From the NCBI GenBank assembly GCA_015058625.1, contig SVCA01000001.1, positions 124,001 through 188,000 of the forward strand: a stretch of DNA of 64,000 nt, in the 5' to 3' direction. Of this stretch, positions 229 through 64,000 are shown in pieces. How positions within the stretch are numbered: the stretch's first letter is position 1; every line of letters begins with the position of its first letter. This DNA comes from Pseudoselenomonas ruminantium (GTDB lineage: Bacteria > Bacillota > Negativicutes > Selenomonadales > Selenomonadaceae). The translations under genes and the position numbers were made by a program. The notes under the pieces are model-generated. The model made no database searches. It was not told where the DNA came from and saw only the letters and a program-made list of their open reading frames with translations.

Positions 229-1854
229 TTATGCTTCTTTTTTATCGAAGGGTACGTGATTGAGGATGAGGTCCGGATTGTTGTCCGTAATCCAGCCCAA
301 AGCCCATTCGTTGTTGACGAGCAGCACCGGGTTATTGTGGCGGTCGTAAACGAACATACCACGGTCAGCGCCTTTGAGTTCTGCCGGCGTTACTTCATGA
401 CCATCTTCAAAGGCCATCCAGCGCGCCACCTCATAAGGCTGCATGTTCATTTCGATATCCACGTTATACTCGTTCTTGAGACGGTATTCGAGCACTTCAA
501 ACTGCAGCGTGCCAACCGTGCCGACAATGTAGGATTCCGTACCAGCACCAGCCTGCTGGAACAGCTGAATCGCACCTTCCTGCGTCAACTGCTCAATGCC
601 CTTGACGAACTGCTTGCGCTTCATGGTGTCCTTGGCCTGTACGCGGGCAAATTTTTCTGGCGGGAATACCGGGAAATCGGCATATTTGAACTTATGGCTG
701 GCATCGCAAACCGTATCGCCGATACCGAACACGCCCGGGTCAAAAAGACCGACGATATCGCCGGGATAAGCCGTGTCGATAATCTGTCTGTCCTGAGCCA
801 GGAACTGCTGGGGCTGGGCAAGTTTCAGCATCTTGCCCGTGCGTTCATGCCAGACTTCCATATTGCGCTCGAATTTGCCGGAGCAAATGCGGATAAAGGC
901 CAGACGGTCACGGTGCGCCGGGTTCATGTTTGCCTGAATCTTGAATACAAAGCCCGAGAACTTTTCATCGTTGGCGGCAATCAGACCTTCCGAGGACTTG
1001 CGTGGCTGCGGCGTCGGCGCCATTTCAATATAACCTTCCAAGAAGTCCTGCACACCGAAGTTGGTCATAGCCGAGCCAAAGAACATCGGTGTCAGTTCAC
1101 CAGCATTGACCTTTTCCATGTCAAATTCTTCACCGGCTTCGCTCAAGAGTTCCAAGTCTTCCTGCAATGCTTCCCAAACATCTTCACCTACACGTTCGAT
1201 AACCTGCGGGTCATCCGGCTCAAATACATCGGCTACGCGGGCTTCCTGACCATGGGTGGTATCGGCGGCAAAGAGCAATACCTTGTCGTTGCGACGGTCA
1301 TACACGCCCATATACTGACCATCCTGACCAATCGGCCAATTCATGGGATAGGAGCGAATGCCCAACACGTTTTCGATTTCGTCCATCAGGTCAATCGGCG
1401 CCTTGCCGAAATGGTCAAGCTTGTTGACGAAAGTAAAGATAGGAATACCACGCTGTTTGCAGACCTTAAAGAGCTTCTTCGTCTGCGCCTCGACGCCCTT
1501 GGCCACGTCGATAACCATGACAGCGCTGTCCACGGCCATCAAGGTGCGGTAGGTGTCTTCACTAAAGTCCTGATGGCCCGGCGTATCGAGAATGTTGATA
1601 CGACAGCCATCATAGTCAAACTGCAATACGGACGAAGTTACAGAGATACCGCGCTGTTTTTCGATTTCCATCCAGTCGGACACCGCATGACGCTGCGTCT
1701 TGCGGGATTTGATGGAACCGGCCAAATGAATGGCACCACCGTAGAGCAAAAGTTTTTCCGTCAACGTCGTCTTACCAGCATCCGGGTGTGAGATGATGGC
1801 AAAGGTACGACGCTTTTCAATTTCTTTATCAAGTTCTGCGCTTAAAGCTGACAA
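229..1854 (-). CDS. prfC: Peptide chain release factor 3 (RF3)
   Basis: A translational GTPase that removes RF1/RF2 from the ribosome after termination. About 541 residues, the usual RF3 length. Visible motifs are the P-loop SHPDAGKTT, switch II DTPGHQDF and NKLD for guanine recognition. The frame is open further upstream, but the best ribosome site, GGAGG at about 1862-1866, sits 7 nt before a TTG at 1854-1852 (reading MSALSAELDKEI). I therefore prefer the TTG start over an ATG 7 codons upstream, at 1875. Monocistronic; it ends at the shared terminator. Confidence 0.95.
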   Translation of the reverse strand: MSALSAELDKEIEKRRTFAIISHPDAGKTTLTEKLLLYGGAIHLAGSIKSRKTQRHAVSDWMEIEKQRGISVTSSVLQFDYDGCRINILDTPGHQDFSEDTYRTLMAVDSAVMVIDVAKGVEAQTKKLFKVCKQRGIPIFTFVNKLDHFGKAPIDLMDEIENVLGIRSYPMNWPIGQDGQYMGVYDRRNDKVLLFAADTTHGQEARVADVFEPDDPQVIERVGEDVWEALQEDLELLSEAGEEFDMEKVNAGELTPMFFGSAMTNFGVQDFLEGYIEMAPTPQPRKSSEGLIAANDEKFSGFVFKIQANMNPAHRDRLAFIRICSGKFERNMEVWHERTGKMLKLAQPQQFLAQDRQIIDTAYPGDIVGLFDPGVFGIGDTVCDASHKFKYADFPVFPPEKFARVQAKDTMKRKQFVKGIEQLTQEGAIQLFQQAGAGTESYIVGTVGTLQFEVLEYRLKNEYNVDIEMNMQPYEVARWMAFEDGHEVTPAELKGADRGMFVYDRHNNPVLLVNNEWALGWITDNNPDLILNHVPFDKKEA

Positions 1855-2072
1855 AATAAATCCTCCAGTTGTCATATAATGTTGAATCGAACTCACATGA
1901 CATCCATTTTACCATAAAATAAGAAGGGAATACAAGAAAATTGGCACGGGACTTTGCCCGCATCAACTTTTACCCTATATGTATTTCTGTCCCATCCTTG
2001 AATGACTGGCTCATGTTATTCAAGACAACTTTTAGGCTTGAGGATGGCCTAAAAATCCGCAGAGGATATGCC

Positions 2073-2490
2073 TCATTTCATTTTCAAATCCAGCAATACC
2101 TTATCGGTTTCCCACGGCGATATGACGGTATAGCCGATACCTGCTCCATCCAGAACAGCCTTAATTTCATCATCCTTTACCTTGGCCCGTTCCAGATTGG
2201 TTTCCTTACGCCCATCAATGCTGATGAATTCATCATTGCGCCGCAGGAGGTATTCCACATTGTCAAACTTGGCATGCTCATGCATGACCAGCTGGTCAAA
2301 GAGTTCATCCGGCGTATTGTTGTAGATGATGTTCAAAGGCAGCGGCGAATCACAGACCGCATACTCCACGCCGTAGCGTTCCAACGTCTTGAGCCGGTGC
2401 ACCTGCTCGGCAAAGAGATACAGCTGGTCCTGCACGATGTCCGTAGCGTTCTGATACCAAAGCCACTTGGCATATTCGCCGACCAATAAT
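2073..2490 (-). pseudogene. N-terminally truncated AAA-type nucleotide kinase/ATPase
   Basis: The frame reads VGEYAKWLWYQ, then CDSPLPLNIIYN. This matches the middle and C-terminal part of small phage/bacterial AAA nucleotide kinases, whose intact members begin with a P-loop about 30-40 residues before the VGEYAKW motif. Upstream of 2490 the frame gives no P-loop, and a hairpin (2529-2570) follows instead. I read it as a decayed gene missing its ATP-binding N-terminus. A near-identical 24-nt piece (encoding NIIYNNTP) occurs near 52.67 kb. Confidence 0.6.
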
Positions 2491-2528
2491 GATATTATAC
2501 ATCACCGCCGAGCTATTCTCTAGCATTG

Positions 2529-2570
2529 AAAAAATCAGCACCATGTTCGAATCCATGATGCTGATTTTTT
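2529..2570. terminator. Hairpin terminator
   Basis: Arms AAAAAATCAGCA (2529-2540) and TGCTGATTTTTT (2559-2570) pair perfectly, with CATG/CATG pairing inside. T-runs on both strands make it a likely bidirectional terminator. Confidence 0.7.
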
Positions 2571-2614
2571 CATTTAGAACGATTCATTCCCAACTGAAAA
2601 TATAGTTACAGACA

Positions 2615-2770
2615 GCAAAAGAACCGGTATCACTCCACTGACTCCGGTTCTCGCTAAAAAGATGTAAGGAAATGGGATACTGGAAACTGGGATATGTTTC
2701 CAGAGAAGAGACCGATAGGTTTTTCCGATGTAAACCGGTGGGATATCCGGCTACTTGCCTATCGACACTT
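2615..2770 (-). ncRNA. Candidate small structured RNA with its own promoter and terminator
   Basis: No convincing protein fits this stretch. Read on the minus strand, it begins after an extended -10-like TGTTACACT (about 2781-2773) and can form three stems in order: GATAGG/CCTATC (2763-2758 with 2719-2714), CTGGAAAC/GTTTCCAG (2703-2696 with 2687-2680), and GAACCGG/CCGGTTC (2650-2644 with 2627-2621) followed by TTTT, a typical terminator. The motif ATCCCA recurs three times in loops or joints. I do not recognise a known RNA family. It is divergent from hypF. Confidence 0.5.
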
Positions 2771-2943
2771 ATAGTGTAACACATCTATTAAAAAAAATAC
2801 ACCCCCTGACGCAAAAAATTTTTATTTTTATCAATTTTTCAGTCTATTACAAATTTAATCCAATCTTATATCACCATATTTGCATGGCGCAATCCCCTTA
2901 ATATATAATAGAAAGTGATTTCAAAGGAAGGCGAGTGACAACC

Positions 2944-5217
2944 ATGGCACTTTATCAAAGCAAAATCTTCGGCATCGTACAGGGTGTGGGCTTCCGTCCC
3001 TTTGTGGCGCGATTGGCCGCCCGTTTTCATATCTGCGGCAGTGTCTGCAACAAGGGGCCTTACGTGGAGGTCTTCGCCCAAGGAAGTGAAGCAGCGGTTG
3101 ACCAATTTCTCACCGCCATCGAGCAGGAACCGCCCGAGCGGGCCTCCATCCTGAAGCTGACCCGTCAAAAACTTGACCAAGCTGAAACCTACGCCGACTT
3201 CCAGATTATTGAAAGCGCCAAGGAGCGAGGTTCCATCTTCGTGTCCCCGGATATTGCCACCTGCGATAAATGCAAAGCGGAACTCTTTGACCCGCAGGAT
3301 AAACGCTATCTTCATCCCTTCATCAACTGCACCGCCTGCGGCCCCCGCCTCACCATTTTAGACTCCATGCCCTATGACCGCGAGCGCACGAGCATGGGGG
3401 AATTTCCCATGTGCCCCAGCTGTCAGGCCGAATACGACAGCCCGACTACCCGCCGCTATGATGCCCAGCCCGTTTGCTGCAACAACTGCGGCCCGGAAGT
3501 CTATCTTATCGGCGAAGAAGATGTGCGGGGGGCTGCCGCCATCACCCGCACCCGTCAAACCATTATCGCGGGCGGAATTGTGGCCATCAAGGGCATTGGC
3601 GGCTTTCATCTCTGCTGTGATGCCACCAACGATAACGCCGTCCGCCGCCTGCGAAAGTTAAAGCACCGTCCAGTCAAGCCCTTCGCCATCATGGCCCGGG
3701 ATATGACGGCGGTAGAGCGTGAATGTCAGGTAGAAGACGGCCAGCAGGAAATGCTCACAGGCCATCAAAAGCCCATTCTCCTCTTAAAGCGAAAATTGAC
3801 CGGTCAAATTGTGGACAGCGTAGCTCCCGGCAATCCAAAAATCGGTATGATGCTGCCCTATGCGCCGTTGCATATGCTGCTCTTTGATTATCCTGACGGA
3901 CTCACCATGCCCGATACCCTTATCATGACCAGCGGCAATCCGGCAGGAGCGCCCATCTGCCGGGATGACGACGGAGCCGTCGCTGCCCTTAGCGGCTTCT
4001 GTGATTTAATGCTGTCTCATAACCGCAAGATTCGCATTCGCGCTGACGATACGGTAATGGACTGGCTTGCTGGCAAGCCCTACATGATTCGCCGCAGCCG
4101 CGGCTTTGCCCCCCTGCCCTTTATGCTGAAAAACGCTTGGCAAGGCGCTGTGCTGGGCATTGGCGGCGAGCTCAAGAACACCTTCTGCGTAGGCAGTAAC
4201 AACATCTTCTATCCTTCGCCCTACGTGGGGGATATGAGCGATTTGCGCACCATGCAGGCTTTGCGGGAAACCATCCAGCGGCTGACGGAACTTCTGGAGT
4301 GCGCCCCCAAAATTGTAGCCTGCGATATGCACCCACGCTATAACACCGTCACCATTGCCAAAGAGCTTGGCCTGCCCCTGTTCCCGGTTCAGCATCACTA
4401 CGCACATATTCTCTCCTGCATGGCAGAAAACGACTACGATGCCCCCGTCATCGGCGTGTCCTTCGATGGCACTGGCTACGGCACCGACGGAACCATCTGG
4501 GGCGGAGAAATTCTGCAGGCTGATTTTCAGGGCTTTCAACGGCTCGCTTCCATTACCCCTTTCCGTCAGGCCGGCGGCGACAAAGCCAGCCGGGAAGGCT
4601 GGCGCATTGCCGTGTCTTTGCTTTACGATTTGACCGGCGACAAGGAAGAAACGCGCAAACATGCTAAGGCGTTAAATCTTTGCAGTGAAGCTGACCTGGA
4701 GGCCATGTTCTTCATGCTCGATAACAACATCAACACCATCAAGAGCACCAGCGCCGGACGCCTCTTTGATGCTGTCAGCGCCATCTTGGGAATTCGCACA
4801 AGCTCCACCTTCGAAGGAGAAGCCAGCATGTATTTGGAATTTGCAGCCCGCAAATGGCAGGACGAACACAAAGATGAGCTGCCTGTTCCTGCTGAAATGA
4901 ACACCGACCGACTCTTTGCCTATCTGCTGGAGCAGCGATTAAAAGGTGAGGACTCTGGCAAACTGGCCTATCTCTTCCATGCAGGCCTTGCCCGCTTCAT
5001 CACGGACGCCTGCCTGCGTGCCCATAAAGACACGGGCTTAAATGTTGCAGCTCTGTCCGGCGGCGTTTTCCAAAACCTGCTGCTGACGGAACTTGTCACG
5101 ACCTTCCTGCAGGAAGATGGCTTCACGGTCCTGCGCCACAGCCTGCTCCCCCCTAATGACGGCGGCATTTGCCTGGGCCAGGCTGTGGCTGCTATGTATC
5201 ATTTGAATTCTGACTAA
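2944..5217 (+). CDS. hypF: Carbamoyltransferase HypF ([NiFe]-hydrogenase maturation)
   Basis: HypF makes the cyano ligand precursor for [NiFe] hydrogenases from carbamoyl phosphate and hands it to HypE. About 757 residues with the full domain order: N-terminal acylphosphatase-like domain (QGVGFRPF, residues about 10-20), two zinc-finger segments (CDKC with CTAC; CPSC with CCNNC, about 105-180), a YrdC-like domain, and a C-terminal Kae1-like domain (HHYAHI, SGGVFQN). GTG 2935 and ATG 2944 are both possible; ATG has the better spacing to AAGGCGAG. A -10 TATAAT-like box lies near 2902. No other hyp gene is adjacent. Confidence 0.93.
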   Translation: MALYQSKIFGIVQGVGFRPFVARLAARFHICGSVCNKGPYVEVFAQGSEAAVDQFLTAIEQEPPERASILKLTRQKLDQAETYADFQIIESAKERGSIFVSPDIATCDKCKAELFDPQDKRYLHPFINCTACGPRLTILDSMPYDRERTSMGEFPMCPSCQAEYDSPTTRRYDAQPVCCNNCGPEVYLIGEEDVRGAAAITRTRQTIIAGGIVAIKGIGGFHLCCDATNDNAVRRLRKLKHRPVKPFAIMARDMTAVERECQVEDGQQEMLTGHQKPILLLKRKLTGQIVDSVAPGNPKIGMMLPYAPLHMLLFDYPDGLTMPDTLIMTSGNPAGAPICRDDDGAVAALSGFCDLMLSHNRKIRIRADDTVMDWLAGKPYMIRRSRGFAPLPFMLKNAWQGAVLGIGGELKNTFCVGSNNIFYPSPYVGDMSDLRTMQALRETIQRLTELLECAPKIVACDMHPRYNTVTIAKELGLPLFPVQHHYAHILSCMAENDYDAPVIGVSFDGTGYGTDGTIWGGEILQADFQGFQRLASITPFRQAGGDKASREGWRIAVSLLYDLTGDKEETRKHAKALNLCSEADLEAMFFMLDNNINTIKSTSAGRLFDAVSAILGIRTSSTFEGEASMYLEFAARKWQDEHKDELPVPAEMNTDRLFAYLLEQRLKGEDSGKLAYLFHAGLARFITDACLRAHKDTGLNVAALSGGVFQNLLLTELVTTFLQEDGFTVLRHSLLPPNDGGICLGQAVAAMYHLNSD

Positions 5218-5221
5218 AATC

Positions 5222-5273
5222 CTTAAGTATACTTAAGAAAACATTTGTCCACGAACATTTTTCATGCTATAAT
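5222..5273 (+). promoter_or_regulatory. Strong promoter with adjoining perfect palindrome
   Basis: -35 TTGTCC (5245-5250), 17-nt spacer, extended -10 TGCTATAAT (TATAAT at 5268-5273). Immediately upstream is the perfect 16-bp palindrome CTTAAGTATACTTAAG (5222-5237), placed where an activator or repressor could bind. It drives the small gene at 5321. Confidence 0.7.
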
Positions 5274-5320
5274 CGAATTAGAGATACTATCCTGCCTGCA
5301 CTTGCAAGGGAGGGATTGTT

Positions 5321-5599
5321 ATGAGCGGTACGAGTGGTATCGGCAGTTTTGCCTATCGCTGGAACCTTGTTGCCTCCGGCATCGCTTCGGTAGATGCCAC
5401 GGCGAGAACCTCGAACTCATTTCACCAGAGCTCTGATAAAAACGAAACCTCCGCGACTCGTGGTACTGTGGAAAGTGCTACGATTACCAAGAGGCTGTCC
5501 GACGGAGCCATGATTATTTTACGTTATGATAAACGCGCCGAGGTTTCGGCCTATTCTGCAGAAAATAGTACGGGCAATAACGTAAATATGACTGCTTGA
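5321..5599 (+). CDS. Small orphan protein, 92 residues, function unknown
   Basis: ATG 5321 follows AGGGAGGG at a suitable distance and a consensus-like promoter lies 50 nt upstream, so expression is credible. The product is rich in Ser, Thr and Ala, with no signal peptide, membrane segment or cysteine. I do not recognise a family. A short second open stretch (about 5605-5685, without a start codon) follows before the terminator, so the transcript may hold more than this ORF. Confidence 0.55.
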   Translation: MSGTSGIGSFAYRWNLVASGIASVDATARTSNSFHQSSDKNETSATRGTVESATITKRLSDGAMIILRYDKRAEVSAYSAENSTGNNVNMTA

Positions 5600-5666
5600 T
5601 TAACGGTTTATATTCAAGGATGGAATAAGCAGGCAGGAGTATCTCGACGAACTGTACAGCAAGCGT

Positions 5667-5696
5667 AAAAAAACCGGCTGAATGCCGGTTTTTTAT
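5667..5696 (+). terminator. Intrinsic terminator
   Basis: AACCGGC-TGAAT-GCCGGTT followed by TTTTTTATTT. It separates the small gene from the ttcA-type gene. Confidence 0.85.
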
Positions 5697-5728
5697 TTGT
5701 TATATTCGATAATGCAAAGGAGCATGTT

Positions 5729-6526
5729 ATGAATCTCAATATGCCACAACTTTACTACAGCAAGCTGATGCGGGCTGTGGTGGAATTCGATATGATTGCC
5801 GACGGTGACCACATTCTGCTGGGCATTTCCGGCGGCAAGGACAGCATCTTCCTCGCTTACGCCATGGCTATTCTGAAGCAGCGGCTGCACAAGGATTTCA
5901 AGCTGTCCGCCCTCACCATCAATCCCCAGTTCAAGGACGAGCAGGGCCGCCCTGCCCTCTTTGATATCGAGCGGGCCAGGGATTTCATGGCGAAGCTCAA
6001 CATTCCCTATGAAATCATCGATGTAGACATTGCGGACACCATTGAAACCTGCCCGGATAAAAATCCCTGCTTTACCTGCGCCTTCTTCCGCCGGGGGGCT
6101 GTGAACCGTTATGCCAAAGAGCACGGCGTCAACAAGGTCGCCTATGCCCATCACCATGATGATGCTGTGGAAACCTTCCTGATGAGTCTGCTCTATTCCG
6201 GTCAGCTCCATACCTTTACCCCGGTCACCTATCTGGACCGCATGGATTTGACGGTTATCCGCCCCTTGGTTTACTTCCGGGAAAAAGAACTTATCGAAGC
6301 CATCAACATCCATGGTTTTGACCCGGTCAAAAGCCCCTGCCCCCATGACGGCAATACCTGCCGCCAAGAGGTCAAGGAACTCATTGCCAAATTGGAGCCC
6401 CAGATTCCCGATGTCTACGACCACTTAGGCGCCGCCATGCGTCAGGGGGCCCTTGGTGAACTCTGGCCCGCCGCCAAGAGCCGAGAGGAAATGCGGAAGA
6501 CATACTTTGCTTATAAGAATAAGTGA
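5729..6526 (+). CDS. TtcA-type tRNA 2-thiocytidine synthetase
   Basis: A PP-loop ATP pyrophosphatase that activates a tRNA cytidine for sulfur insertion. 265 residues. The ATP motif SGGKDS is at residues about 35-40. The CFTC pair (NPCFTCAFF) and a third cysteine region (SPCPHDGNTC) match the cysteines that hold an Fe-S cluster in TtcA. A good ribosome site AAAGGAG precedes ATG 5729. It could be another TtcA/TilS-superfamily thiolase with a different tRNA target. Confidence 0.8.
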   Translation: MNLNMPQLYYSKLMRAVVEFDMIADGDHILLGISGGKDSIFLAYAMAILKQRLHKDFKLSALTINPQFKDEQGRPALFDIERARDFMAKLNIPYEIIDVDIADTIETCPDKNPCFTCAFFRRGAVNRYAKEHGVNKVAYAHHHDDAVETFLMSLLYSGQLHTFTPVTYLDRMDLTVIRPLVYFREKELIEAINIHGFDPVKSPCPHDGNTCRQEVKELIAKLEPQIPDVYDHLGAAMRQGALGELWPAAKSREEMRKTYFAYKNK

Positions 6527-6578
6527 AGATAACAGCACTTGTAAAATTGCAGTTTGCCAGTTCGTACTAAAATTTTTT

Positions 6579-6800
6579 GTTACAGCTCAGTTTGGGCGGA
6601 GGTGGTAATACTTTTCGCCGTTGCACTGAATGACCCACAAGTAAATGTATAGACTTTTTAGTTACCTGCGCCGGGCGAGACCGGCGGCGCGTATGTTCAG
6701 CCCAGTGTTTAGTCTATGCCGTTTGTGGGCCAGTCCTCACTGCGTTCGGACAGTCGTTCCACGGCGAAAAGCATCACCACCTCCGCCCTAAGTTGCGTCT
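6579..6800 (+). repeat. Long structured palindromic repeat, copy A
   Basis: A non-coding element closed by GGGCGGAGGTGGT (6594-6606) and its exact complement (6776-6788), with a second stem layer TTTTCGCCGT/ACGGCGAAAA and inner hairpins GCGCCG/CGGCGC and GTCC/GGAC. It shares the inner segments AGTTACCTGCGCCGGGC and CAGTCG with copy C at the right edge, in the same orientation, while the outer stems differ in sequence but keep pairing. No gene is present. Confidence 0.75.
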
Positions 6801-6833
6801 GCATAAAACGAATTTTTTCTCGGTGATAAGCAG

Positions 6834-7130
6834 CAAGTACATCGATGTTCTTGTTACGGGAGCAACGAGTTCGTGGCAATAGTATAGGCCGTAACTTGGG
6901 TCGGACGGGGGAGTGATTTTTCTGTAGGGAGCGACTGCCTGAACGAAGTGAAGGCCGACCCCATGTAGTCCCCTGCTAAGCAAATACGCTGAAAGGAGCG
7001 CCGTTGGCCTGCCCGGCGCGAGTAACTGGACAGCTCTACTTTGCGAAGGGGTCGTTTAGCGGAAAACAGAAAAATTACTCCCCCGTCTGGCCCCAAACTA
7101 AGCATGAACAAGATACCTTTATCACGAACT
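6834..7130 (-). repeat. Long structured palindromic repeat, copy B
   Basis: The reverse complement of this block matches copy C (63672-63964) almost throughout, from the GTGATAAAGGTATC edge to the near-palindrome CAAGTACATCGATGTTCTTG edge (about 6834-6853). The outer arms (GGGGGAGTGATTTTTCTGT and its partner about 190 nt away) pair, and inner GCGCCG/CGGCGC and GCCT/AGGC stems are kept. It lies back to back with copy A between the ttcA-type gene and the TPR gene; the 6527-7162 interval has no other content. Confidence 0.8.
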
Positions 7131-7162
7131 CCCCAACAAACCGTAATTAATCTATCACAGGC

Positions 7163-12559: not shown

Positions 12560-12605
12560 AAAAACTCTCCCATTGACAAGTCAATTTGACATGTCAACGG
12601 GAGAA
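12560..12605 (-). terminator. Terminator containing a double TTGAC palindrome
   Basis: Outer arms CTCCC/GGGAG enclose TTGACAAGTCAA and TTGACATGTCAA in tandem, with a T-run on the minus strand. It closes the ATPase gene at 12614. Confidence 0.75.
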
Positions 12606-22966: not shown

Positions 22967-23045
22967 CGTAACAAACTCCAGTAAAATCCCCATCCCCATC
23001 GCTCGCGGGTGTAAGAAACGGCCAACGTTTCTTGCGGTGATTGTC

Positions 23046-23206
23046 AATCAGGCAGTTCTCCTGGCTTCAGTTCATCATCATATCGCGCCTTCCCAAAGAG
23101 GCTTTTCCCTCTCCAGTGACTTACATGCAATATGACTCCCTGTTACAGTGGCGGGACCGCTCCGGCATATACCGGATTCTCTATTAAGTCTTCCGACACC
23201 TGATTC
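23046..23206 (-). promoter_or_regulatory. Cobalamin riboswitch
   Basis: Minus strand carries the conserved blocks in order: AGGTGTCGGAAGACTTAATA, GGGAATCC-like AGAGAATCCGG, GCCGGAGCGGTCCCGCCACT, GTAAGTCACTGG, GGGAAGGCG, GATGATGAACTGAAGCCAGG and AGAACTGCC (B12 box). Downstream (23045-22967) a long A/G-rich linker with an AAGAAACG/CGTTTCTT stem could serve as antiterminator before the terminator at 22929-22966. Confidence 0.93.
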
Positions 23207-23277
23207 AACCGTATATTAAAAATTACTCTCAATACACAATAAGACAAACAGAATTTTACCACTCCCCCCAGTCTGTG

Positions 23278-31746: not shown

Positions 31747-31800
31747 GAATTACAATAGCCGTTGACAAGTCAATTGACCTATCAACGGCTATTGTAATTC
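31747..31800 (+). terminator. Long perfect hairpin after the AIPR-Xre operon
   Basis: 19-nt arms GAATTACAATAGCCGTTGA (31747-31765) and the complement (31782-31800) enclose a CAAGTCAATTGACCTA loop, again using the TTGAC palindrome. Confidence 0.75.
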
Positions 31801-43132: not shown

Positions 43133-44302
43133 TTATTTCTCAGGAAACATATTTTGCAACATATATTTCTTGATTTCTTTTAAGGTCTCATGCTTACGCT
43201 GATGAAGGGTGATAAGGTTGTCTAAATTAGTAAAGACCGCTTCAACCTTTTCCTGCTCCTTTATGTTTGGCGTAGGTATTTTCATATCAGCTATCATTTC
43301 CATACGCACCGAATCAACCGAGGTTTTTGCCGTCATTGACATAACCCGATTATAAAACAGCTTCGAGAATACATGATAGAAATATTTAGCATTTAACGCA
43401 TCTGTGAAGTCATACATCCTATAGCAGCGCTGATGAAGGTCGTATTTGCCATTCACATAATGAAATACCTTCCCCGTTCCCACTCCATCTCCAACAGTAA
43501 GAACAGCCTCTTCATCATACAAGTATTTTGTACTTCTTTCAATTATTGGCGAACGAACATAGAAAGGGTATTCACCATCATCTACTTTGTCTTGAGTATT
43601 ACTCTTCCCCGTAGAAATTGAACACATGTCTGAAATCTTTCGCTGTTCCCAATCGTCAGTGAACCCAGCAAAGCGAATCTCTGGAACTTTTTCTCCTTTT
43701 TTCGGAAACATTTTTTGAAGCATATACTTCTTTACTTTTTGCAGTTCATCACACTTACGCTGATGAAGGGCGATAAGGTAGTCAAGGCTCTTGAACTGAT
43801 GGCTTATCTGCCGTTGTTCCTCATAGCTGGGATATGGCAAGTTAATCTTGGCTAGGTCTGAGTTATGCAAATGGACAACTGACTTGCCCTGTGCCATCTT
43901 CGCCATATCGCTGTGAGGCTTGCCGTTTGATATGCTTATGGCGAGAAAGGCAGAATCAAGCTCCTGCGGTGGTGTGATGATATTCAAGTCACCACCAAGT
44001 ATAACCCCAGGCTGGTCAACAACAGAAGCAACGGAAATATCTTCTGCCGTTTCTCCAGAAGCAGGAACTATCACTTCCCCACCATTGCTGAATACAGAGT
44101 TAGATTTCTCACTGGCGAATGTGTCAACATCGCTGATGACTGTTTCATATTTCGTATACAATCTACCATAAAGAATTATTGGTGTTCCATCTTCTTGCAA
44201 ATCGGACTTTGAATATCCTGACCCTTTTGAGAAGCTGACAATATCTCCCAACTTCCGCTGTTCCCAATCATCCGTAAATCCCTTAAATCGCAATTTAGGC
44301 AT
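43133..44302 (-). CDS. hsdS: Type I restriction enzyme, S (specificity) subunit
   Basis: 389 residues from ATG 44302. Two target-recognition domains, each opened by the same phrase GFTDDWEQRK (starting near residues 7 and 212) and each closed by a LHQRK...KKYMLQ(K/N)MFP helix. The duplicated DNA segments could allow recombination that swaps recognition domains. Together with HsdM it sets the DNA site; the site itself cannot be predicted here. Confidence 0.93.
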   Translation of the reverse strand: MPKLRFKGFTDDWEQRKLGDIVSFSKGSGYSKSDLQEDGTPIILYGRLYTKYETVISDVDTFASEKSNSVFSNGGEVIVPASGETAEDISVASVVDQPGVILGGDLNIITPPQELDSAFLAISISNGKPHSDMAKMAQGKSVVHLHNSDLAKINLPYPSYEEQRQISHQFKSLDYLIALHQRKCDELQKVKKYMLQKMFPKKGEKVPEIRFAGFTDDWEQRKISDMCSISTGKSNTQDKVDDGEYPFYVRSPIIERSTKYLYDEEAVLTVGDGVGTGKVFHYVNGKYDLHQRCYRMYDFTDALNAKYFYHVFSKLFYNRVMSMTAKTSVDSVRMEMIADMKIPTPNIKEQEKVEAVFTNLDNLITLHQRKHETLKEIKKYMLQNMFPEK

Positions 44303-50168: not shown

Positions 50169-50512
50169 CTACTTTACAATATCCTGATACATTTCCGGCC
50201 TACGGTCGCGGAAAAGGCCCCAGCTCAAACGGTCTTTGGCATATTGGTCAAGGTCAAACGCAGCGGTCAAAACCTGCTCGTCCGTGCGGCTTGCTTCAGC
50301 GATAATCTCCCCGGTGTTATCCGTGATAAAGGAAGAACGATAGAAATTCAGCGACGAGGACTGACCGCTGTTTTCTGCGCAGGGTTCCACGCTCTCCATG
50401 CCAATGCGGTTAGCCGCGATTACAGGCACGAGATTGCTACCCGCACAGAGGTCTTGACATTTTCCGTATCCAGCTGGGAAAACCATATTTCCATGTATCT
50501 GCCTCCTTTTGA
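50169..50512 (-). pseudogene. Chimeric remnant: 5' speE joined to 3' aguB
   Basis: The first about 19 codons (MEIWFSQLDTENVKTSV) match the start of speE at 58147, including the ribosome-site region. They run straight into the last about 92 codons of aguB (AGSNLVPVIAANRIG onwards; compare 52850-53130). The junction lies at a shared GCGGG(T/C)AGCAATC-like sequence and changes the frame, so no fusion protein is made. It looks like the two ends of a second polyamine cluster whose middle (about 5 kb) was lost. Confidence 0.85.
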
Positions 50513-50546
50513 CCAGTCAACCTGACCGGTCAAATTGACATGTCAG
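50511..50546. repeat. Triple TTGAC palindrome
   Basis: TTGACCAGTCAA, TGACCGGTCAAATTGACATG and TGTCAG in tandem, upstream of the speE' remnant and at the end of the MNT-HEPN gene. The real speE has the matching pair at 58157-58188. Confidence 0.65.
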
Positions 50547-51252: not shown

Positions 51253-51307
51253 CTCTGCCGACCTCACTTAGACTTTATATGCATATCCTGATTATATTAC
51301 ACCCGCT

Positions 51308-51336
51308 GTTGACAAGTCAAAATCGACCTGTCATAT
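51308..51336. repeat. TTGAC palindrome pair upstream of the MNT-HEPN gene
   Basis: GTTGACAAGTCAA followed by a diverged partner CGACCTGTCA, between the MNT-HEPN start and the gltS stop. Probably a gltS 3' hairpin. Confidence 0.55.
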
Positions 51337-52849: not shown

Positions 52850-53725
52850 CTACTTTACAATATCCCGATACATCTCCGGCCGCCTGTCGCGAAAAAGTCC
52901 CCAGCACAGGCGGTCTTTGGCGTATTGGTCAAGGTCAAACGCAGCGGTCAAAACCTGCTCGTCCGTGCGGCTTGCTTCCGCGATAATCGCCCCGGTATTA
53001 TCCGTGATAAAGGAAGAACCATAGAAGCTCAGCGACGAGGACTGACCGCCGTTTTCTGCGCAGGGTTCCACGCTCTCTACGCCAATGCGGTTAGCCGCGA
53101 TTACAGGCACGAGATTGCTGCCCGCATGGCCCTGCATGCAGCGGCGCCAGTGGGGCATGCTGTCGGTTTCGAGAATCGGTTCGGAACCAATCGCCGTGGG
53201 ATAGAGCAGGATTTCTGCCCCCTGCAGGGCCATGGCGCGGGCAGCTTCAGGGAACCACTGATCCCAGCAAATACCTACGCCCATCTTGCCATAGCGGGTA
53301 TCCCAAACCTTAAAGCCGGTATTGCCCGGCGTAAAGTAGAATTTTTCCTGATAATAATGGTCATCGGGAATATGTGTCTTGCGATAAACGCCCAAAACCT
53401 CACCATCTGCGTCGAGCATGGCAATGCTGTTAAAGAGCCGCGTGCCATCCTTCTCATAGAAACTGATGGGCATAACCACCTTTAATTCCCTGGCAACCTG
53501 CTGAAAATGCTGCACCGCCGGATTTTCAGCTGCTGCGGTGGCATAATCATAAAAATCATACTGCCGCTGCTGGCAGAAATAAGGCCGCTCAAAGAGTTCC
53601 GGCAGCAAAATAATCTGCGCCCCCTGCTCCGCGGCTTTGCGTACCAGTTGTTCGGCTTTTTTTATATTCTCACTTACACCTGCCGTCATCTGCATTTGAA
53701 TGGCGGCAACGGTTACTTTGCGCAT
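52850..53725 (-). CDS. aguB: N-carbamoylputrescine amidase
   Basis: Hydrolyses N-carbamoylputrescine to putrescine. 291 residues, nitrilase fold with the Glu-Lys-Cys triad in LPELFERPYF, YRKTHIPDD and GICWDQWFPE. Its ATG overlaps the aguA stop (TAATG). Last gene of the polyamine operon. A duplicate of its 3' third is at 50169. Confidence 0.95.
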   Translation of the reverse strand: MRKVTVAAIQMQMTAGVSENIKKAEQLVRKAAEQGAQIILLPELFERPYFCQQRQYDFYDYATAAAENPAVQHFQQVARELKVVMPISFYEKDGTRLFNSIAMLDADGEVLGVYRKTHIPDDHYYQEKFYFTPGNTGFKVWDTRYGKMGVGICWDQWFPEAARAMALQGAEILLYPTAIGSEPILETDSMPHWRRCMQGHAGSNLVPVIAANRIGVESVEPCAENGGQSSSLSFYGSSFITDNTGAIIAEASRTDEQVLTAAFDLDQYAKDRLCWGLFRDRRPEMYRDIVK

Positions 53726-57290: not shown

Positions 57291-58147
57291 TTTCTTACTT
57301 CCTCCTCCGAAAGAATATCCTCGACATATTTGGGCAGCATAAAAGCCCCCTTATGCAGATGGGTCGTATAATACCAGGTTTTGAGTCCGCGCGCGTTCCA
57401 GCGCTTGTCATCAAAATCCTTCAAGGGATGATACTTCTTGGATGCAAAGCCAAACATCCAAAGCCCTGCCGGACAGGTCGGAATCCCCGCCTGATAAACG
57501 CGGCTCACGGGAAAACTCTGATACGCCTTGCGGTGCATGGCCCGGAAGGCCGCCTCGTCCTCGTCATAGAAGGGGCTGCCATGCTGATAGACCATAATGC
57601 CGTCATCATGCAGAGCGCGGTAACAGTTGCCATAGAATTCGCGCGTAAAAAGTCCTTCCGTATGGCCAAAGGGGTCCGTCGAATCGTTGATGATGAGGTC
57701 GTACTTATCCCGGCAGCGCCGCAAAAAGCGCAGGCCGTCCATGTTCGTAATCTTCACCCGGTCATCATCAAAGCCCTTGGCCGTCTCGGGGAAAAACTCC
57801 CGCGAAACCTCGATAAACATTTCATCCGGCTCCACCACATCGATGGCTTCAATCTCAGGGTATTGCGTCAGGACTTTGGCCACACCGCCGTCACCGCCGC
57901 CGATAATCAGCACATTTTTTACCTGCGGATGAACGGCCATCGGCACATGCACCACCATTTCGTTGTAGATGAATTCATCTGCCTCCGAAAAGATAATTTC
58001 GCCATCGAGCACAATCATCCTGCCAAATTCCCGCGATTCAAACACATCAATGCGCTGATATTCACTCTGGCGGGAAAAAAGCTGTTTGTCTACCCGCACA
58101 GAGGTCTTGACATTTTCCGTATCCATCTGGGAAAACCATATTTCCAT
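57287..58147 (-). CDS. speE: Spermidine synthase (aminopropyltransferase)
   Basis: 286 residues: VLIIGGGDGGVAKVL, VEPDEMFIEVSREFFP, YDLIINDSTDPFG and LYTREF-like LFTREFYGN. Transfers an aminopropyl group from decarboxylated SAM. No speD is in the window, so the donor must come from elsewhere. The first 19 codons are duplicated at 50.5 kb. Confidence 0.93.
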   Translation of the reverse strand: MEIWFSQMDTENVKTSVRVDKQLFSRQSEYQRIDVFESREFGRMIVLDGEIIFSEADEFIYNEMVVHVPMAVHPQVKNVLIIGGGDGGVAKVLTQYPEIEAIDVVEPDEMFIEVSREFFPETAKGFDDDRVKITNMDGLRFLRRCRDKYDLIINDSTDPFGHTEGLFTREFYGNCYRALHDDGIMVYQHGSPFYDEDEAAFRAMHRKAYQSFPVSRVYQAGIPTCPAGLWMFGFASKKYHPLKDFDDKRWNARGLKTWYYTTHLHKGAFMLPKYVEDILSEEEVRK

Positions 58148-58156
58148 GTATTAGCC

Positions 58157-58188
58157 TCCTTTTGACATGTCAATTTGACTTGTCAAAT
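58157..58188. repeat. TTGAC palindrome pair between speA and speE
   Basis: TTTGACATGTCAA and TTTGACTTGTCAAA in tandem across the speA stop (58183) and the gap to speE. Confidence 0.65.
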
Positions 58189-59640
58189 TTCCGTCAATAT
58201 GCGCATTTCCCGGCATTCCAAGTCCTGCGTTCCCTGCAGGGAGCAGCCCTTTTCGCGGGCGTATTCGATATAGTCGAGAATCTCCTGCGTAATGCGCTCG
58301 CCCGGTGTCAGAATGGGAATTCCCGGCGGATAGCACATCAGCATTTCTCCGGCTACCCGTCCTACGGTTTTCTCCAGAGGCATGCGTTCTCCCTGAGCAT
58401 AAAAGGCATCCCGCGGGCTCATCACGAGTTCGGGCGCAATGAATTCCCCGCAGTAAAGTTCCTTACGGTTCGCAGCCGCCGAACGGTCCGCAATATCTTC
58501 CAAAGCACCCACCAGCCGCTCAATATCGCGAATGCGGTCACCGATGGAAATATAGGCCAGAATATTGCCGATATCGCCGAATTCAATCTGAATATCGTAC
58601 TCATCGCGCAGCATATCGTAGACTTCAATCCCCGTCATGCCAATCCCCTGGGTGAAAACGGAAAGTTTCGTCACATCAAAATCAAACACGCTGTCCCCAT
58701 CAATAAGTTCCCGCCCATAGGCGTAATAACCGCCAATCTCGTTGATTTCCGCACGGGCATATTCCGCCATCGAGCTGACTTTTTCAAAGGACTCCTTGCC
58801 ATGCAGAGCAAGATTGCGGCGGGACAAGTCAAGGCTCGAAATCAGCAGATACGAAGCACTCGTCGTCTGGGTCAGATTGATAATCTGCTGCACATATTCG
58901 GCGTCCACGCCCTTGCCGCAGAGCATAATGGAACTCTGCGTCAGGCTGCCGCCGGATTTATGCATGGAAACAGCCGCCAAATCCGCCCCGGCCGCCATGC
59001 CCGAAATCGGCAGATTATCGCCAAAATACAGATGGGTACCATGCGCCTCGTCCACGAGCACCTTCATGCCGGCTTTATGGGCAATGTCCACAATGCCCTT
59101 AAGGTCGGATGCGATGCCATAATAAGTGGGATTATTGACAAAGATGGCCTTGGCCTTGGGATGCTCGCGGATAGCCCGCTCCACATCCGACAGCGCCATG
59201 CCCGTGGCAATGCCAATCTGATGATTGACCCGCACGGGCACATAGACCGGTATGCCGCCGCAGAGCACCAGCGCATTGATTACACTTTTATGTACATTGC
59301 GCGGCAAAAGGATTTCCTCCCCCGCCCGCACCGTCGCGAGCACCATCGCCTGTACCGCTGAGGTAGTGCCATGCACCATAAAGAAAGCATGTTGGGCGCC
59401 AAAGGCATCGGCAGTCAGTTCCTCTGCTTCCTTGATTACCGAAACCGGATGACTCAAATTATCCAGCATCTTCATGGAATTGACATCGACGCCCACGCAT
59501 TTTTCGCCCAGAAAATCCACGAGTTCCGGGTTGCCCCGTCCCCGCTTATGCCCGGGCACATCAAAGGGCACAACGCGCCGCTTGCGCAATTCTAACATTG
59601 CTTCGTATACAGGGGCCGTATGTTGACTGATTCTATCCAT
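58183..59640 (-). CDS. speA: Arginine (Orn/Lys/Arg) decarboxylase, short fold-I form
   Basis: 485 residues from ATG 59640 (GGGAGGGG upstream); an upstream frame extension has no family match. PLP enzyme like Bacillus SpeA: VPGHKRGRG, GTTSAVQAM, VDEAHGTH and the PLP lysine in SMHKSGGSLTQSS. Context with aguA and aguB points to arginine as substrate, although lysine or ornithine cannot be excluded by sequence. First gene of the operon. Confidence 0.9.
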   Translation of the reverse strand: MDRISQHTAPVYEAMLELRKRRVVPFDVPGHKRGRGNPELVDFLGEKCVGVDVNSMKMLDNLSHPVSVIKEAEELTADAFGAQHAFFMVHGTTSAVQAMVLATVRAGEEILLPRNVHKSVINALVLCGGIPVYVPVRVNHQIGIATGMALSDVERAIREHPKAKAIFVNNPTYYGIASDLKGIVDIAHKAGMKVLVDEAHGTHLYFGDNLPISGMAAGADLAAVSMHKSGGSLTQSSIMLCGKGVDAEYVQQIINLTQTTSASYLLISSLDLSRRNLALHGKESFEKVSSMAEYARAEINEIGGYYAYGRELIDGDSVFDFDVTKLSVFTQGIGMTGIEVYDMLRDEYDIQIEFGDIGNILAYISIGDRIRDIERLVGALEDIADRSAAANRKELYCGEFIAPELVMSPRDAFYAQGERMPLEKTVGRVAGEMLMCYPPGIPILTPGERITQEILDYIEYAREKGCSLQGTQDLECREMRILTEI

Positions 59641-59724: not shown

Positions 59725-59765
59725 GTAAAATTATTTTATGGATTATAAGAATTGGATTGCTATTT

Positions 59766-59800
59766 GCTACAGCTCAGTTTAGGGCGGAGATGAGAATATA
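59766..59800 (+). repeat. Fragment of the long structured repeat (left edge only), copy D
   Basis: TACAGCTCAGTTTAGGGCGG matches the left edge of copy A (6580-6602), after which similarity stops. A truncated copy or a shared insertion edge. Confidence 0.5.
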
Positions 59801-61150: not shown

Positions 61151-61262
61151 AACAAAAACCGCCTGGACAAAATCTCTGCCCAGACGGTCGGCTTATCTTA
61201 ACCATACAGTGCATGTGGTCATTTCCACTTATCCGTCAGCCCTGCATGGCCTGTTTACTTTT
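61151..61262 (-). promoter_or_regulatory. Structured leader of the MFS gene, possible ZTP-type riboswitch
   Basis: Minus strand: stem CCATGCAG/CTGTATGG (61249-61242 with 61209-61202) encloses CTGACGG and a GTGG/CCAC hairpin. Downstream CCGTCTGGGCA is the 3' signature of pfl/ZTP riboswitches, and its CCGTC can pair with the GACGG above as in the ZTP pseudoknot. The same CCGTCTGG also forms a terminator with CCAGGCGG-TTTTT (61187-61151). The usual GGGAG block is not seen, so the class is uncertain. Confidence 0.45.
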
Positions 61263-63671: not shown

Positions 63672-63964
63672 AGTTCGTGATAAAGGTATCCAGTTCATAC
63701 GTTGTCAGGGGCGAACGGAGAGTAATTTTTCTGTTTTCCGCTAAACGACCCCCTCGCAAAAGAAAGATGTCCAGTTACCTGCGCCGGGCAGGCCAACGGC
63801 GCTGCTTTCAGCGTATTTGCTTAGTTGCTTCCTACAGGGGCCGGCCTTCACTTCGTTCAGGCAGTCGCTCCCTACAGAAAAATCACTCCCCGTCCGCCCC
63901 AAACTACAGATTATGCAATCGGCGAGAACTCGTTGCTCCCGTTACAAGAACATCGATGTACTTG
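63672..63964 (+). repeat. Long structured palindromic repeat, copy C
   Basis: About 290 nt, strongly similar to the reverse complement of copy B. Outer arms near 63706-63732 and 63875-63903 pair (GAGTAATTTTTCTGT with ACAGAAAAATCACTC), with inner GCGCCG/CGGCGC, CCCCT/AGGGG and GCCT/AGGC stems. Edge sequence ACAAGAACATCGATGTACTT is a near-perfect palindrome. No gene lies between 63591 and 64000. Confidence 0.8.
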
Positions 63965-64000
63965 CCCCTTGTCACTGCGAAAATGCCAACTTATACGGAC

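Follow-up and report, generated by a model that had tools for sequence, protein, structure and literature searches.

The window, a stretch of 64,000 nucleotides of DNA, contains a non-coding element in which two giant hairpins lie between 13-bp terminal inverted repeats (TIRs), and at matched sites in a close relative the copies of this element stand in either orientation. On balance, we favor the reading that these elements are non-autonomous, MITE-like double-hairpin DNA cassettes, and that their TIRs are exchange sites for a putative trans-acting enzyme. A more sweeping version is offered tentatively, and we find it rather doubtful as a whole: that about 30 docking sites in Selenomonas, each a near-palindromic 13-mer, are loaded with unrelated giant-hairpin cassettes, in either orientation, by a putative recombination system.

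One element with two giant hairpins

An earlier note had described positions 6579 to 7130 as two back-to-back elements of about 300 bp, A and B, with covarying stems. The flagged stretch is real, its sequence and base pairing are as claimed, and both blocks fold better than shuffled sequence: block A at -91.1 kcal/mol (z -5.81; 0 of 200 shuffles as good) and block B at -122.3 kcal/mol (z -4.84; 0 of 100). Two separate elements they are not. A and B lie about 20 bp apart, in the same order and adjoining, in most genome copies, and the two-element view was rejected because one alignment runs through both in most of the copies fetched. Both lie within a single 606-bp TIR-to-TIR unit, the A-type element (Table 1), and positions 6579 to 7130 lack both of its ends. 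Most copies extend beyond the reported ends to the TIR; a few element ends among the fetched copies are degraded or lost. The 63 full elements from nine genomes, namely those with both TIRs recognizable, are 587 to 614 bp long; the element is larger than REP or ERIC units. The further copy C is also real, running past the end of the window, with a B part 85% identical to the B of the window copy.

Hairpin A is about 70 to 75% similar to the reverse complement of hairpin B, which gives the A-type layout an approximate symmetry, running from TIR through hairpin, central palindrome and inverted hairpin to TIR. The differences between A and B are therefore divergence between the two arms of one element. 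As read from the sequence, the TIR differs little from its reverse complement (AAAYTGCARTTT). The longest ATG open reading frame in the 63 A-type elements has a median of 70 aa and a maximum of 173; in six elements of the B-type, described below, it is 36 to 73 aa, and a long conserved open reading frame was not evident in either set.

Table 1. Positions of the element, its parts and related sequences within the window
Feature	Position	Strand	Remarks
Whole A-type element, TIR to TIR	6544..7149	+	606 bp; holds blocks A and B
Left TIR	6544..6556	+	AAATTGCAGTTTG
Right TIR	7137..7149	-	here CAAACCGTAATTA; commonest form CAAACTGCAATTT
Giant hairpin A	6594..6788	+	outer stem GGGCGGAGGTGGT / ACCACCTCCGCCC
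Central palindrome	6834..6853		CAAGTACATCGATGTTCTTG; central module of about 135 bp repeated in some copies
Giant hairpin B	6905..7086	+	inverted relative of A; outer stem ACGGGGGAGT / ACTCCCCCGT
Second copy of the element (copy C)	63672..64000	-	runs past the window end as far as G000:C5:188216
Possible remnant of the left part of the element	59763..59798	+	86% over 36 nt

Pairing is under selection

Pairing was scored in an alignment (A1) of 27 of the 63 full elements, chosen for spread across nine genomes. Because of gap placement, an automatic fold of A1 recovered only part of the structure; a structure of 103 pairs was therefore set by hand from the window copy, a choice that favors the real structure over controls in which partners were slid by 1 to 3 columns (41 to 46% paired). 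Paired cells made up 88.5%, against 85.1% in shuffles (0 of 500 as high). Pairs changed on both sides numbered 27 against 19.4 (1 of 500), cells with a two-sided change 116 against 50.5 (0 of 500), and the covariation score was 0.141 against 0.084 (0 of 500), all by shuffle statistics that ignore the relatedness of the copies. One measure showed the opposite trend, further pair types numbering 59, below the 65.3 of the shuffles. These data support selection for folding of the A-type element.

The main stem of B was 98.9% paired across the 27 copies, with two-sided changes at 7 of its 20 pairs. The apical stems named previously, GTCC/GGAC in A and GCCT/AGGC in B, do covary (two-sided changes at 2 of 4 pairs each), as do the long stems of A and B. 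The TIR was 93.1% paired, and none of its 13 pairs had a two-sided change, which marks it as conserved as sequence. The idea that compensatory change reflects selection for folding stands on the 27 copies; the comparison of A with B from which it was drawn is arm divergence, and copies and species supply the stronger evidence. In this bacterial repeat, ends conserved as sequence and an interior conserved as structure are now separated.

A probable DNA hairpin rather than RNA

The earlier note had allowed for either a folded RNA or a hairpin DNA intermediate, and of these hairpin DNA fits better. An RNA made from one strand is expected to tolerate G-U better than A-C. G-T and A-C mismatches were equal in the 27 copies (108:108), and nothing in these counts points to a one-strand RNA; in the 63 copies, counted over pairs common to folds of both strands, there were 145 G-T and 201 A-C. 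The lean is opposite in the two hairpins, the A half having more A-C and the B half more G-T, with few columns involved. The interior of the window copy showed no sigma-70-like site, and orientation is free relative to neighboring genes. Together with the equal mismatches, these observations favor hairpin DNA, and we read the pairing evidence as DNA-level structure, a reading that is not proof. A multicopy family of structured RNA genes, with pairing selected in the transcript, would account for the strong compensatory change and for the conserved length. We consider it very unlikely in view of the mismatch counts, the free orientation, the lack of a promoter-like site inside the window copy, and the existence of unrelated interiors with the same ends.

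The family is unclassified, as had been claimed: no Rfam family reached gathering score in the flagged region. Nor was there an Rfam match at E<=1 inside element copies from five sources; isrG (E 0.45) and a tRNA matched in flanking DNA, outside the copies. Rfam RNA families were rejected, since no covariance model matched in the element copies.

Distribution and genomic context

The genome of the window, G000, is that of a Selenomonas. A neighboring protein has 17 relatives, every one from Selenomonas and many carrying the name S. ruminantium. The genome has about 33 copies of the element. Block B gave 42 matches and block A 89, with 33 long ones each, mostly in adjacent places and in the same order. 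By blastn the A-type element is present in 15 of the 22 Selenomonas genomes, its own included, and in 0 of 38 genomes outside the genus, where the searches were by blastn and TIR pattern only. Allowing up to one mismatch, the 13-mer of the TIR occurs 49 times in G000 and 41 times in its close relative G011, mostly at element ends (reversed control, 0). The single exact TIR of G000 that was left unplaced (L115) belongs to an element end that is truncated, and three single matches opened in G011 looked like chance. The exact 13-mer is found 11 to 50 times per genome in the 15 A-type genomes. Among blastn-negative genomes of the genus it occurs in G010 (10), G018 (8), G021 (4) and G014 (1), and it is absent from G008, G015 and G019; with one mismatch allowed, G019 has 51 TIR matches, mostly AAATTACAGTTTG (control, 3). 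Outside the genus the exact 13-mer occurs once each in 8 of 38 genomes, and the reversed control once each in 3.

A plasmid or phage origin is unsupported: the element had no phage match, one exact 24-base pattern had no match in viral contigs, and the one plasmid match, to pSR1, was partial (41% of the query). In the pSR1 record (NC_002139.1, L143), positions 14-265 hold part of an element beside radical SAM genes, and this piece may be a chromosomal fragment. In the assemblies G004, G012, G013 and G019, many TIR or element matches fall a few hundred bases or less from a contig end, and the element repeats therefore probably break draft assemblies. That coincidence is one practical warning; another is that the elements could be mistaken for phase-variable inversions or for conserved RNA genes.

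Genes around 49 loci were scored by codon usage, an approximate measure that replaced a stop-free-run test found too noisy. Thirteen loci lie between convergent genes and 27 between tandem genes; at seven, a gene 3' end adjoins on one side and no gene was scored on the other, one lies between divergent genes and one was unscored. The element adjoins a gene 3' end in 47 of the 49. A terminator-like hairpin lies within 70 nt of 25 of 128 element ends, compared with 3 of 106 windows further out. Many ends adjoin a similar pair of such hairpins, a short G/C hairpin and then AAAGTSCGTTGAC...GTCAACGSACTTT, seen at the flanks of L001, L004, L008, L023 and L029 and also at L096; this pair may be a repeat family of its own.

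Conserved sites with changing content

The flanks of G011 and G000 are about 95% identical. An element is present in both genomes at 26 sites with both flanks matched, in the same orientation at 16 and reversed at 10. This count leaves out L014/L015, one-flank sites, L004 and the ambiguous matches, namely L020 and additional matches for L022 and L029; of the 26 elements in G011 that it includes, L098 and L099 are incomplete. The reversed elements sit between intact flanks with their breakpoints at the TIR, and the window copy is among those reversed in G011 (L035/L040). Two of three one-flank sites are also reversed; L014 and L015 are split by an IS, and both ends match L108, reversed. In a few cases the outer TIR variants stay with the flank and the inner ones change. 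Two G000 sites are empty in G011.

Segments that lie between short inverted repeats and occur in both orientations at many loci are known as invertons, or multi-locus DNA inversion systems. If the elements were of this kind, each would flip in place between its TIRs and switch the neighboring gene, as reversal at 10 of 26 sites with breakpoints at the TIR might suggest. The relationships among copies argue otherwise. In an analysis of 28 site pairs (fragments L014, L015 and L034 left out), the counterpart ranked 3rd to 32nd of the 33 G011 copies at the 11 reversed pairs ranked. Averaged over 50-nt segments, the mean rank at reversed sites was 15.4 of 33, compared with 14.3 for random partners, so that reversed sites hold other family members, and pure in-place inversion was rejected on this ground. 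Two pairs, L035/L040 and L019/L104, are reversed, yet each has reciprocal rank 1, and some true in-place inversion is therefore possible. As a general account, simple inversion is most improbable; it also sits poorly with elements that lie behind genes and with the exchange of A-type for B-type at one site, which is not inversion.

At same-orientation sites the mean rank was 8.8 and orthology was patchy, which suggests that ordinary gene conversion also acts there. Nine pairs classed as orthologous are all in the same orientation (Fisher p 0.004, the class having been set after the ranks were seen); with L019 and L035 counted as orthologous, p is 0.11. The link between replacement and reversal thus depends on the post hoc class. 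Strains could also have exchanged entire loci by homologous recombination, and some cassettes could have moved in this way.

The site of the window copy is occupied in G000 and G011, and in G003, G004, G005, G013 and G017 it is a short intergenic region; some genomes without the element have a terminator-like hairpin there. No A-type match was found in 17 named loci around the same gene, some with other neighbors and overlapping in part with those five genomes. The G000 counterpart of another locus, L109, is not a clean empty site.

A second family with the same ends

In G010, G018 and G019 we found cassettes with the same TIR and architecture and with unrelated interiors (B-type). TIR pairs in these regions are 557 to 571 bp apart, with further forms at 332 to 465 bp; among those inspected, pairs about 690 to 708 bp apart have another repeat in mid-element. 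Folds of seven indicate that full-length B-type elements have two giant hairpins as well. The window copy and 22 B-type elements share only terminal matches of 12 to 26 nt and one 28-nt stretch, at E>=0.26.

At one locus, L182 (a B-type element of G010) and L189 (a B-type element of G018, 465 bp long) have matching flanks, at 90% on one side and 87% on the other, and the element between them is reversed. The left flank of L089 (G002) is 88.8% identical to that of L182 up to the TIR, after which an A-type element follows; the right flank of L089 is off the contig, so that the comparison of A-type with B-type uses the left flank. Three genomes thus carry, at the same base, a B-type element, a reversed B-type element and an A-type element. 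This is the one base-exact site for an A/B swap; L175 (B-type) shares an intergenic region with the A-type L012/L044, not base-exactly. A single genomic site is in this way seen to be filled, from genome to genome, by structured DNA of unrelated kinds.

A second hairpin repeat, CCTTCCCC...GGGGAAGG next to GGATGAGGT, was noted at L097, L088, L091, L182, L184 and L187, these loci being an otherwise empty site in G011 and a number of elements, both A-type and B-type, that contain it. The repeat may be mobile in its own right.

A model of cassette exchange

We propose that a cassette would settle downstream of genes, in many cases next to a terminator-like hairpin. A site, once occupied, would tend to stay so, its cassette being replaced over time, in either orientation, by one of the same family or by one of the other, A-type and B-type sharing only the TIR. 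The TIR would be the recombination or transposition site of a putative enzyme acting in trans. Its near-palindromic core may explain the free orientation: to an enzyme that recognizes so nearly self-complementary a site, the two directions would be hard to tell apart. What selection maintains would be a folded single strand or a cruciform rather than an RNA, and this may be the enzyme's substrate, as proposed for REPINs in an excerpt of PMC3116915; such a role would explain the selection on pairing.

Of the rival explanations, repair copying at cleaved hairpins ranks first, followed by insertion at hot spots, a family of RNA genes and, last, simple inversion. The first needs no dedicated enzyme. 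The hairpins would extrude and be cut by a host hairpin nuclease (SbcCD-like), and the break would be repaired by copying another cassette, in either direction because both broken ends carry the same TIR. The hairpins are indeed very stable, gene conversion at same-orientation sites is patchy and no mover was found; against this, the terminal 13 to 26 nt that A-type and B-type share offer little homology for a swap, and new sites also arise. We regard this explanation as unlikely. We regard it as decidedly unlikely that a transposon specific for a sequence or structure has inserted again and again, independently and in either orientation, at the same hot spots beside terminators. The terminator-like hairpins near element ends, the use of the same base by three genomes and the two G000 sites empty in G011 count in its favor, but of about 34 sites in G000 no fewer than 26 are occupied in G011 too, which is unlikely by chance unless hot spots are few and saturated, and no shared target sequence was recognized.

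As to the enzyme that cassette exchange would require, no TIR pair around a transposase was noticed among the TIR matches of G000 and the closed genome G011, not all of which were opened, and ends with more mismatches would escape this search. No target-site duplication was noticed by eye in the flanks, where there was no base-exact empty site for comparison. Nor did the sequence comparisons made here show a match to a known transposon end, which the earlier note had named as a refuting result. RAYT (Y1 transposase, PF01797) matched in 8 of 15 genomes and was rejected as the mover, since the domain is absent from element-rich genomes: G000, G001, G002, G011, G017, G010 and G018, all element-bearing, lack it. 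One element copy in G000 (L116, G000:C17:1-9000) is split at about 577-6755 by a 6.2-kb insertion with ends AATGTCATTAAGTTAAGG / CCTTAACTTAATGACATT, which begins with an IS4-type (DDE_Tnp_1) transposase gene and also carries YadA-like adhesin and CoiA_N-domain genes. It was rejected as an autonomous partner because of that transposase type and its different ends.

Relation to known systems

The element resembles MITEs in being short, non-coding and TIR-bounded, with many dispersed extragenic copies and no transposase of its own. It differs in its length of about 600 bp with two giant covarying hairpins, in the lack of a related autonomous transposon among the TIR matches opened in G000 and G011, and in that families with unrelated interiors have the TIR in common and sites are reloaded in either direction. 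Invertons, too, occur at many loci as a segment bounded by short inverted repeats and found either way round, but here the content is replaced, not merely flipped, the window copy has no promoter-like site inside, and no invertase was identified. Integron gene cassettes are interchangeable cargo between conserved short sites, and folded DNA may be their substrate. The present elements share these traits, folded DNA being a possible substrate here too, but they lie at dispersed single sites, not in an array, and carry no evident gene. With REPs and REPINs they have in common extragenic palindromes, compensatory changes and a possible single-strand intermediate (excerpt of PMC3116915). REPs are given as 20 to 40 bp in an excerpt of PMC3733652, whereas the present element is extragenic and palindromic but 587 to 614 bp, and genomes rich in it lack the RAYT-type domain; a REP/RAYT assignment was rejected on both counts.

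The kinds of component, namely TIRs, hairpins and extragenic repeats, are known. Searches of open-licence papers gave no description of these elements, nor the combination of a length of about 600 bp, giant covarying hairpins, a shared TIR with unrelated interiors, and sites with swapped, reversible cassettes. If the more sweeping, docking-site version is right, this would be a system of cassette exchange, dispersed and free of genes, in which DNA structure itself is the cargo. Bacteria usually destroy long hairpins, and the persistence and spread of large palindromes there become testable with these elements.

Other features of the window

Elsewhere in the window are a cobalamin riboswitch (23034-23218, minus strand), a ZMP/ZTP riboswitch (61171-61253, minus strand), and operator-like TTGAC..GTCAA palindromes at 12573-12603, 31747-31800, 50437-50536, 51296-51320 and 58090-58189. 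Two direct repeats, 50169-50445 / 52850-53126 (277 nt at 92%) and 43136-43222 / 43697-43783 (87 nt at 76%), are unrelated to the element.
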